From the NCBI RefSeq assembly GCF_000020485.1, contig NC_011899.1, forward strand, positions 745,937 to 809,936: DNA of 64,000 nucleotides. Direction: 5' to 3'. Of the stretch, positions 23,301-25,998 are shown one piece after another. Every line of letters begins with the position of its first letter. Positions within the stretch are counted from its first letter, which is position 1. The DNA is from Halothermothrix orenii H 168 (GTDB lineage: Bacteria > Bacillota > Halanaerobiia > Halanaerobiales > Halothermotrichaceae). A program made the position numbers and the translations under genes. The notes under the pieces are model-generated. The model made no database searches and was not told the origin of the DNA. It saw only the letters and a list, made by a program, of their open reading frames with translations.

Positions 23301-23786
23301 TCAAGTTGTCACAGGTGAAAGAGATATCTGAAGTAGCAATTGATTGGTGTGCGGGTAATGATTTGCTACTGGCACAATCATTACATCCCAGCTTACCAGG
23401 TAAGAGCCTCTGTGTCCTTTAAGCAGGTTGTCATTAGAATTTACCTTAATCCATTGACTGCTGAAAGAAGATATTCCCGATGGTTTTACATAGACATCAT
23501 ATCCTGACTTTTCTACAATACTTAAGTTTAGATTCCAGTTTACATTACTTGTTATTCTGGTTTGTCCAACATTATTGATGATAACCGGGTTGCCGTTTTT
23601 AAGTTGTGCTTTGACCTGCTCAAGGTTAACAGAAACCGGTCTAATTTCAGTTAATTCCTGATAGGCTTTAACTGTTGATGTTACCCTGACTACTTGTCCA
23701 GATTTTCCACCTGCCTGGATTGAGACCGTAATGATTAGTAAAAGAGATACAGCTACCATGAGAGTAAGAGCTGTCCTTCTCTTCAT
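23301..23786 (-). CDS. secreted protein of unknown function under c-di-GMP riboswitch control
   Basis: A 161-residue protein with a classic Sec signal peptide: KRR at the N-terminus, hydrophobic core to about residue 22, and probable cleavage near IQAGG. The mature part (~135 residues) is Ser/Val/Asn-rich with alternating strands (ITSNVNWNLNLSIV, DVYVKPSGISSF). It looks like an all-beta extracellular domain, perhaps adhesive or matrix-like, but I recognise no family. ATG follows GAAGGAGGTG, and that ribosome-binding site forms the 3' arm of riboswitch 2. It is a single-gene unit with two tandem c-di-GMP-I riboswitches upstream. Confidence 0.8.
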   Translation of the reverse strand: MKRRTALTLMVAVSLLLIITVSIQAGGKSGQVVRVTSTVKAYQELTEIRPVSVNLEQVKAQLKNGNPVIINNVGQTRITSNVNWNLNLSIVEKSGYDVYVKPSGISSFSSQWIKVNSNDNLLKGHRGSYLVSWDVMIVPVANHYPHTNQLLLQISLSPVTT

Positions 23787-23791
23787 AATGA

Positions 23792-23897
23792 CACCTCCTT
23801 CGGCAGTCCGGCTGCCATACCGGTTAAAAATAACCGGCTACAGGCCCGTGACTTTGTGTCCCCACCTTTCGATGGGTTTACCATTTCCGGAGGTAGA
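23792..23897 (-). ncRNA. c-di-GMP-I (GEMM) riboswitch 2, translational
   Basis: Minus-strand RNA matches GEMM-I: GGTAAACC, a GAAA-capped P2, GGGGACACAAAG, ACGGGCCTGTAGCC, then the P3 stem GCCGGTTA / TAACCGGT and GGCAGCCGGACTGCCGAAGG. The 5' arm ACCTCC (plus 23889-23894) pairs with GGAGGT of the Shine-Dalgarno (plus 23793-23798). Ligand-stabilised P1 would therefore hide the ribosome-binding site (OFF). Relative to riboswitch 1, a C-G pair in P2 has become U-A (GGC...GACGC to GGT...GACAC), a covariation that supports the fold. Confidence 0.88.
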
Positions 23898-23904
23898 AGG
23901 AATA

Positions 23905-23936
23905 GAAAAAACCTGCCCAGACCCGGCAGGTTTTTC
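23905..23936 (-). terminator. intrinsic terminator between the tandem riboswitches
   Basis: Minus strand AACCTGCC / GGCAGGTT with a 7-base loop, then six T. The arm CCTGCC can alternatively pair with GGTAGG of riboswitch 1 P1 (plus 23945-23950), giving a mutually exclusive antiterminator. Confidence 0.88.
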
Positions 23937-23944
23937 CACTATCT

Positions 23945-24057
23945 CCTACCTTCGGTAACCCGGCTGCCATACCTTATATAAGTTTTTTTTATATAAGGCT
24001 ACAGGCCCGTGGTTTTGCGTCCCTGCCTTTCGACAGGTTTGCCTTTATCGGTCTAGG
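23945..24057 (-). ncRNA. c-di-GMP-I (GEMM) riboswitch 1, transcriptional
   Basis: Near-consensus GEMM-I on the minus strand: AAGGCAAACC, TGTCGAAAGGCA, GGGACGCAAA, ACGGGCCTGTAGCC, a long A/T P3 stem (CCTTATATAA / TTATATAAGG), then GGCAGCCGGGTTACCGAAGG. P1 can form between CCTA-(GA)-CC (plus 24050-24057) and GGTAGG (plus 23945-23950). It is followed by an intrinsic terminator, so it should act at transcription. The G at the position that distinguishes c-di-GMP from cAMP-GMP binders appears retained (from memory of the Vc2 structure). Confidence 0.92.
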
Positions 24058-24060
24058 AAA

Positions 24061-24462
24061 CTATATATATTTCCTTTTTATATATCTATTTATTAAATTC
24101 AAGGTAAGAGGTTAAAATCCTTCTTAAGTCTTATAAATTTTATAAATAAATGTTATAAACTTTCATAATTGATTTTTGTACTATAATGACTGGACATCTA
24201 AATTTCGTTTCACCGGCTTTCAATTTCTATGAAAGTTAGGTTAGTACTAAATAGTATGAAATACAGTGAGTTTATAATTAACTTTATTTAATATTGATTT
24301 ATCTGACCGTATACAGATGTTTATGATTGTTATTTTCACAATGTAAAGGGAATTTAATATATTTTAAGTAGGGGGGTTTAGGATTGTAATTTTTTTATTA
24401 CAGATTTTTATTGATTTACGGTGTATTATATACTTTATTTAAAGATTAAATATCGAATAAAT
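24061..24462. other. gene-free AT-rich region between riboswitch 1 and the insertion sequence
   Basis: It holds a possible minus-strand promoter for the riboswitch transcript (TTACCT, 17 bases, TATATA; plus 24079-24107) and repeat copy B (24164-24250). The rest is AT-rich sequence with no ORF I would support. It was probably contiguous with 26009 onward before the IS inserted. Confidence 0.5.
24164..24250. repeat. dispersed imperfect repeat, copy B
   Basis: Shares AATTGATTT, GTTTCACCGGCTTTCAATT and AGGTTAGT blocks with copy A near 18600. The core hairpin here is CTTTCA / TGAAAG, so the stem sequence has changed on both sides relative to copy A while pairing is kept. Confidence 0.4.
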
Positions 24463-25998
24463 GAACGTGTAAAATTTAAGTAGGAAAAGAAGGAAAACAA
24501 GGTATAGATAAAGAAATAGAGACCTCAAACAAACCCGACCAAAGGAGTTGAGGTCTCTATGGTAAATATTTTACTACAAAACATAACAGATATCAATACC
24601 TTGGAGAAGGCAGCACTGGAACTTGCAAGGCAGATAATGGAGAAGGTAATAGAAAAGCTTGAAGAAGAGCTATTTAAAAATAAAGATAAAAATTTAGAAG
24701 TAGTAAGATTTTTAGAAAGAACGATATCGACTAAAGTTGGAAACATCAAGCTTAGAAGGCGACTATATAAAGACCAAAAAACAGGAAAAAGCGTCATTTT
24801 ACTGGACAAAAAACTGGGGTTAAAAAAGAAAAAAAGAGTAAGTGGAGAATACCTAAAACTGCTGGTAATACTGGCAAGTAAGATGAGCTACAGGCAAGTG
24901 GAGGAAGTACTGGCTGAAGCCGGTTTTCCCCATTTAAGCCATACAACTATCTTTAATGAAGTCAGGGATTTTGGAAAAAGGGAGTCAGAGAGACTCAAAC
25001 ATGAAAAAGAGGAAGTATTCACTGGAGGTAAGATTTTAAAAGGAGAGGAAAAAGAAATACCACTACTATTCATTGAAGCTGACGGGATAATGGTTGGTAG
25101 TCAGGAAGAAGGAGGAAAGAAGCTGGAAATCAAACTGGGATTAATCCATGAGGGCTGGGAATACACTAGTCCAGCAAAAAAACGGAAGAGATTGAAGGAG
25201 CCACAAATAGTAGCAGGAGTCTATGGAAAAGCAGATGACTTTTATGAAGAATTAATCCATCAAATAAGCAAAAAATATAATCTTGAAAACACTTTAGTAG
25301 TATTAAACGGGGACGGTGCCAGCTGGATACAAAAGACCAGTAAGGAATACTTTGAAAATATAATAGTACAACTGGATAGGTATCATATAAAAAGAGATAT
25401 AGGATTATACTTTGGAAGAGAAGTTGCAGATGATTTATGCAGGGTATTAGCAGAAGGAAGAAAGCAGGTATTTCTGGACACATTGGAATCGTTAATATGT
25501 ATGGGAGAAACAGCTGAAAACCGAGAAAAGAGGAGGAAAATAATAAAGCATTTTAAAAAGTATGAAGAGCACTTATTAGATTACAGATATCGAATACCAA
25601 CAGAATTAAGGAATAAAGAATTACATGGGATGGGAGCAGCTGAGGGCTATGTGGATAAGAATGTGGCTCGCAGGATGAAGAACCAGGGAATGAATTGGAG
25701 CAAAAAAGGTGCTGAGGCAATGGCTAGAATTTTAATGTTAAAACATAACAAGGAATTAAAAGAAAGACTTGGAGATCAGTATTACACAATAAAAAACCCG
25801 GTAAGGAAAATAAAATATATGTTTAAGAAAGTGGACAGGGATTGGAGTAAGTGGTTACAGGCAAAAATACCTGCAATAAATGGTCCAGATAGCGGTAAAG
25901 ATTGGGTAAAAGCAATAAGAGGACTGGCAACTATTTAGAATAAATATTTATGGGTTGTTTGAGGTGAAATATTCTTCCTACCTTTTCTTGACACGTAC
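24463..25998 (+). mobile_element. ISLre2-family insertion sequence, intact, with target duplication
   Basis: The element is flanked by the 10-base direct repeat TCGAATAAAT (24453-24462 and 25999-26008). Its ends are imperfect inverted repeats: ACGTGTAAAATTTAAGTAGG at the left (from 24465) and, reading the minus strand inward from the right end, ACGTGTCAAGAAAAGGTAGG. Length is 1536 bp with one full-length transposase gene. A clean target duplication and an intact ORF suggest a recent insertion. Confidence 0.9.
24559..25938 (+). CDS. ISLre2-type transposase (UPF0236)
   Basis: A 459-residue transposase of the UPF0236 group. Candidate DDE residues are Asp175 (FIEADGIMVG), Asp252 (VLNGDGASWIQ) and Glu362 (HGMGAAEGYVDKN). 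The zinc-finger/HTH-like N-terminal part includes SYRQVEEVLAEAGFPHLS. A hairpin straddles its start: GAGACCTCAA (24520-24529) pairs with TTGAGGTCTC (24549-24558), directly before ATG, and could cover the translation start. This would limit expression from outside promoters, as in other IS elements. Confidence 0.92.
   Translation: MVNILLQNITDINTLEKAALELARQIMEKVIEKLEEELFKNKDKNLEVVRFLERTISTKVGNIKLRRRLYKDQKTGKSVILLDKKLGLKKKKRVSGEYLKLLVILASKMSYRQVEEVLAEAGFPHLSHTTIFNEVRDFGKRESERLKHEKEEVFTGGKILKGEEKEIPLLFIEADGIMVGSQEEGGKKLEIKLGLIHEGWEYTSPAKKRKRLKEPQIVAGVYGKADDFYEELIHQISKKYNLENTLVVLNGDGASWIQKTSKEYFENIIVQLDRYHIKRDIGLYFGREVADDLCRVLAEGRKQVFLDTLESLICMGETAENREKRRKIIKHFKKYEEHLLDYRYRIPTELRNKELHGMGAAEGYVDKNVARRMKNQGMNWSKKGAEAMARILMLKHNKELKERLGDQYYTIKNPVRKIKYMFKKVDRDWSKWLQAKIPAINGPDSGKDWVKAIRGLATI

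Follow-up and report, generated by a model that had tools for sequence, protein, structure and literature searches.

Bi-mechanism tandem riboswitches form a published category, with SAM-II/SAM-V as the type case, and the same source lists 347 c-di-GMP-I doublets solely as pseudo-cooperative, mixed expression platforms not being comprehensively evaluated there (PMC9481103). In experiments, the triple tandem Bc3-5 of Bacillus thuringiensis switched more stringently and more digitally than a single riboswitch or a pair (PMC4759541). The direction of class-I control is not transferable between species: Bc2 of B. thuringiensis is an ON switch, and the two class-I riboswitches of Vibrio cholerae respond in opposite ways (PMC6366702). 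In C. difficile the rule is class I OFF and class II ON (PMC6366702). Another class-I riboswitch, Bc1, binds c-di-GMP with expression unchanged (PMC11218506).

The leader described here precedes a secreted-protein gene on the minus strand of a 64-kb window (the whole stretch of Halothermothrix orenii DNA that was analysed). Its tandem is real and conserved, and its design is already known from other riboswitch classes. It probably acts as a tandem bi-mechanism c-di-GMP-I riboswitch, repressing a single gene at two successive steps. Neither a description of a c-di-GMP-I bi-mechanism tandem nor a paper treating this organism together with riboswitches was found in the open-licence literature, and the 347 doublets of the earlier count quite possibly include the one from H. 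orenii (PMC9481103).

Layout of the tandem leader

An Rfam search of the window returned exactly two riboswitches, both on the minus strand, and a genome-wide covariance search found no other class-I aptamer above cut-off. Both copies pass the gathering cut-offs of two models (35 bits for RF01051, 59 bits for RF03167). The elements, in order of transcription, are as follows.

24055–24075, minus: possible 5' hairpin AGGAAAT/GTTTCCT, anti-P1 of aptamer 1 (folding only)
24054–24060, minus: TTTCCTA, P1 5' strand of aptamer 1 (sequence and folding)
23950–24052, minus: c-di-GMP-I aptamer 1 (RF03167, 76.7 bits, E 1.9e-16; RF01051, 80.2 bits); P2 pair C22-G45; G20 = 24043, A47 = 24016, C92 = 23955
23944–23950, minus: GGTAGGA, P1 3' strand of aptamer 1 and alternative 5' strand of the antiterminator (folding, 17 terminator-type leaders)
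23892–23950, minus: long imperfect inverted repeat GGTAGGAGATAGTGG / CTATTCCTTCTACC, -32.0 kcal/mol
23905–23937, minus: intrinsic terminator, 13-bp stem, -19.2 kcal/mol, z = -5.1, as good in 0/200 shuffles; 5' arm CCTGCC 23930–23925, 3' arm GGCAGG 23917–23912, U6 23911–23906
23889–23894, minus: ACCTCC, P1 5' strand of aptamer 2 and anti-RBS (exact complement of GGAGGT; P1 of the minimum-free-energy fold)
23798–23891, minus: c-di-GMP-I aptamer 2 (RF03167, 71.7 bits, E 5.3e-15; RF01051, 76.7 bits); P2 pair U22-A45; G20 = 23882, A47 = 23855, C92 = 23803
23793–23798, minus: ribosome-binding site GGAGGT within the P1 3' strand of aptamer 2, 6 nt before the ATG at 23786
23301–23786, minus: regulated gene for a 161-aa secreted protein with a signal peptide (homologues under c-di-GMP-I control)

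Both aptamers carry long, similar P3 extensions (23969–24010 and 23815–23850), which are absent from relatives. The gene is a single-gene unit, because the next gene downstream is convergent. Its product is predicted to be a beta-sandwich of pilin-like type (model pLDDT 73) and matches PapA, FimG and FimA at Z 6.0–6.8 over about 110 residues, which is weak and below a telling level; no match of the fold search was decisive, with pilin and unrelated beta-sandwich chains tied at Z of about 6–7, and Pfam and NCBIfam offered no confident family. Divergent from the leader lies a gene for a UPF0236 (PF06782) protein, presumably a transposase (24559–25938 of the window, plus strand), and this gene may be what parted the regulated gene from the cluster that relatives have.

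A sequence-only reading of the locus had proposed that the minus strand carries two GEMM-I aptamers in tandem, the first followed by an intrinsic terminator whose 5' arm could instead pair with P1, the second sequestering the ribosome-binding site. Covariance-model scores are significant for both copies (71.7–80.2 bits; 80.2 and 76.7 bits with RF01051), the terminator is as proposed (13 bp and U6), and ACCTCC, part of P1 of aptamer 2, is the exact complement of the gene's own GGAGGT; these elements and their complementarities are established here. The label of plain GEMM-I needs qualifying: the parent model RF01051 matches both copies, but the first Rfam label is the GGC variant RF03167. The placing of the antiterminator strand within P1 likewise held in part. 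GGTAGG (23950–23945) is complementary to CCTGCC (23930–23925), but only its TAGG lies within the outer P1 helix, in which TTTCCTA (24060–24054) pairs with TAGGAGA. In folding, the antiterminator grows to nine pairs (ACC.GGTAGG with CCTGCC.GGT) and takes in the ligand-binding C92.

Stepwise folding of the H. orenii leader gives a clear order of predicted structures: P1 stands at 0.85–0.95 until the 3' end reaches 23926, where CCTGCC is emerging, the antiterminator at 0.94–0.99 with the 3' end at 23922–23915, and the terminator at 1.0 from 23908 on, in the same order at 60 °C. In the equilibrium calculation the terminator always prevails, which means that any OFF/ON control exerted by copy 1 has to be kinetic. 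This folding supports a predicted transcription-OFF action of copy 1. If the transcript start includes the 5' hairpin, the latter could sequester the P1 5' strand as long as no ligand is bound; a promoter scan gave a result no better than shuffles.

Copy 2 has its ribosome-binding site inside P1, and translation-OFF control would fit this anatomy. The translational part of the sequence-only reading thus stands as to the place of the site, but local folding shows no evident ON state in the absence of ligand, because the site is predicted to be 98% paired in copy 2 on its own even with no ligand present, and 81% paired in the context of the full leader. P1 of copy 2 is GC-rich, and that of relatives (tandem partners and RBS-type single aptamers) is weaker, with the site unpaired at 0.16–0.67 in the copy alone, a wide range.

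Related leaders and the age of the tandem

The search for homologues of the secreted protein covered 121 relatives and GTDB contigs, together with 59 genomes from the class and 398 from the phylum. By our count, a c-di-GMP-I aptamer lies directly upstream in 23 of 25 full-length homologues; the exceptions, L048 and L092, lack an upstream aptamer and have a SAM riboswitch (RF00162) shortly downstream. The leader set comprises 25 non-redundant leaders, three weaker homologues included, and nine of them, from at least five families, are tandems (L041, which is the H. orenii leader, L047, L050, L052, L072, L084, L086, L096 and L101). All nine have a terminator-like hairpin after copy 1 and a copy 2 that overlaps or abuts the ribosome-binding site. 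The single-aptamer leaders comprise eight of the terminator type and eight of the RBS type, as if one half of the tandem had been kept or lost.

A hairpin follows the aptamer in 17/17 terminator-type leaders (14 found by script, three by eye). In these leaders the pairing of the P1 3' strand with the leader's own terminator 5' arm or loop beats 1000/1000 arm shuffles; with arms swapped between leaders the own value is reached in 111/5000 permutations, a weaker result than that of the shuffles. The P1 strands also fit their own partner better, swaps being as good in 2/5000. An ON-type reading of copy 1 found no support, GGTAGG being common to P1 and antiterminator and the terminator-type relatives repeating this logic with different sequences. 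In the RBS-type leaders a 5'-flank helix covers at least four bases of the ribosome-binding site in 15 of 17, with the start codon 5–9 nt downstream, and the 5' flanks pair better than in 1000/1000 shuffles. For both copies the anatomy supports a putative OFF direction.

The C-G to U-A change in P2 between the copies, earlier taken as a covariation of two sequences, is present in H. orenii (C22-G45 in copy 1, U22-A45 in copy 2) and turned out to be more than that, since it tells the first copy from the second in all tandems of the set (9/9; Fisher p 4e-5 for P2 pair against position, kinship ignored). These position-bound pairs in all nine tandems indicate that the tandem is old and that its copies diverged by position, and the recurrence of the layout ahead of related genes, in five families or more, marks it as a real, long-kept switch.

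Ligand, proposed mechanism and alternatives

G20, A47 and C92, which from established structures we take to be the ligand contacts of c-di-GMP-I aptamers, are kept in both copies, and G20 and A47 occur in 34/34 aligned aptamers of H. orenii and its relatives. A G rather than an A at position 20 goes with a preference for c-di-GMP over cAMP-GMP (PMC9481103). Among the products of the genome are five intact GGDEF proteins, with GGEEF/GGDEF motifs and the canonical Asp in the ND..GH signature, and one PilZ protein; no EAL domain was found. The canonical contacts together with the five GGDEF proteins make c-di-GMP the likely ligand of both copies.

With c-di-GMP bound, aptamer 1 would keep P1, pairing of GGTAGG with CCTGCC would be blocked and the terminator would end transcription: arrest of P1 by the ligand before the antiterminator window would leave CCTGCC free, giving the OFF state. 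Without ligand, the nascent RNA would exchange P1 for the antiterminator, and read-through by RNA polymerase would follow. On the full-length mRNA, c-di-GMP on aptamer 2 would stabilise P1 (ACCTCC with GGAGGT) and block access of the ribosome. The direction of control and the ligand-dependence of this second step are what we infer from anatomy. Of the two mechanisms in series that had been read from the sequence, the order of terminator and then RBS platform holds in nine leaders, and the ligand-free ON state of copy 2 is the part that did not emerge. A sharp, low-leak switch would be expected by analogy with bi-mechanism riboswitches (PMC9481103) and with the triple c-di-GMP tandem (PMC4759541).

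The alternatives concern the second unit, the relation between the two, their origin and the ligand. The first unit might be the only one that switches, copy 2, whether c-di-GMP-binding or degenerate, keeping translation permanently low through a stable P1. Its GC-rich stem and the near-complete ligand-free pairing of its ribosome-binding site are what such an arrangement would give, but copy 2 retains every ligand-contacting nucleotide at 71.7 bits, and other families preserve the overlap of aptamer and ribosome-binding site though their P1 is weaker, which fits selection for switching; we consider a silent second copy unlikely. The two units might also be coupled in H. orenii through a long hairpin, a one-gene RNA memory and not two independent checks. 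The arms of the inverted repeat (23950–23936 with 23905–23892, the terminator inside) would bring together strands of both P1 stems, the 3' strand in aptamer 1 and, in aptamer 2, the 5' strand with part of the anti-RBS. If coupling were true, read-through would put aptamer 1 out of action and partly release the ribosome-binding site, and an mRNA past the terminator would be set on translation until aptamer 2 is captured by c-di-GMP. The flank duplex is matched by 60/5000 shuffles, a moderate significance, and in the nine tandems own pairs are no better than swapped ones (25% of permutations reach the value), which rules the coupling helix out as a general feature and leaves it at most specific to H. 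orenii, where it strikes us as rather improbable.

A recent duplication would make the locus a simple pseudo-cooperative pair, two independent copies with no special logic. The two H. orenii copies are 77% identical, the highest within-leader value among the nine, and share the unusual P3 extension (CTGTAGCC...GG.TATGGCAG in the aptamer alignment); this extension suggests exchange between the copies and looks like their partial homogenisation in H. orenii. However, the expression platforms of the two copies differ, copies across the nine leaders are closer to same-position copies elsewhere (similarity 0.70 and 0.73) than to their own neighbour (0.63 and 0.60), and in the aptamer tree a branch of modest support (88/74) holds copy 2 and six RBS-type singles on one side, all of which makes a simple recent pair a poor candidate. 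Even less credible is membership of the c-di-GMP-I-GGC variant family with another ligand. The names of the variants appear, as we understand them, to spell the three ligand-contact bases, so that GGC would put a G at 47. Rfam ranks RF03167 first for both copies, but where its consensus has a G directly after P2 (GACGCGAA) both have an A (GACGCAAA, GACACAAA), and both also pass the parent c-di-GMP-I model. The label at face value was rejected on the canonical A47, and by their ligand contacts both copies read as ordinary c-di-GMP-I aptamers despite it. Successive repression of transcription and translation by c-di-GMP remains the preferred reading.

The wider circuit and known systems

The genome has one c-di-GMP riboswitch of class II, which lies upstream of another secreted-protein gene.

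L103:1501–1584 (genome 2206055–2206138), minus: the only c-di-GMP-II riboswitch of the genome
L103:954–1448, minus: gene for a 164-aa secreted beta-protein behind it

A terminator has the conserved AACCG of this riboswitch in its 5' arm, which makes the riboswitch look ON-type. Genes for 492-aa and 1248-aa proteins follow that of the 164-aa protein, and the three look like a surface-export operon. The class-II target may be the reciprocal partner of the window gene, c-di-GMP swapping one surface protein for another; genes controlled by class-I and class-II riboswitches lie near each other in relatives, and no direct sequence link was found between the 161-aa protein and the class-II target. 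In the relatives' loci L055, L056 and L099 the homologue has as neighbours a 500-aa WxLIP-like protein and small secreted proteins, the gene for one of which is preceded by a c-di-GMP-II aptamer; L055 and L056 add a secretin-like protein. These clusters may represent a surface or pilus system under c-di-GMP control that belongs to no named family.

The separate jobs and separate sequence lineages of the two copies across at least five families suggest that each position is under its own selection, and a difference in affinity or speed between a transcriptional and a translational aptamer becomes testable. With this leader, a widespread second-messenger riboswitch would enter the bi-mechanism category, so far documented mainly for SAM.

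The leader has two complete aptamers, probably for the same ligand, before one gene, and an antiterminator through which P1 and the terminator of the first unit compete. Like SAM-II/SAM-V and the SAM-II doublets, it places two complete riboswitches before one gene, terminator first and ribosome-binding site second, but here both units are c-di-GMP-I (PMC9481103). With Bc3-5 of B. thuringiensis it shares complete c-di-GMP-I riboswitches in series, whereas the part of that report drawn on here describes three similar copies before cspABCDE and gives no sign of a separate translational unit (PMC4759541). Bc1 of the same species is likewise of class I and acts on transcription and translation, the two steps proposed here, but it does so with one aptamer, a dual terminator and incoherent effects, its downstream expression being unresponsive to c-di-GMP in vivo (PMC11218506). 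In C. difficile, as proposed here, a class-I riboswitch turns off one secreted protein, and class II turns on surface proteins; there, however, the class-I units act by transcription termination and the secreted target is a protease, not a pilin-like protein (PMC6366702).
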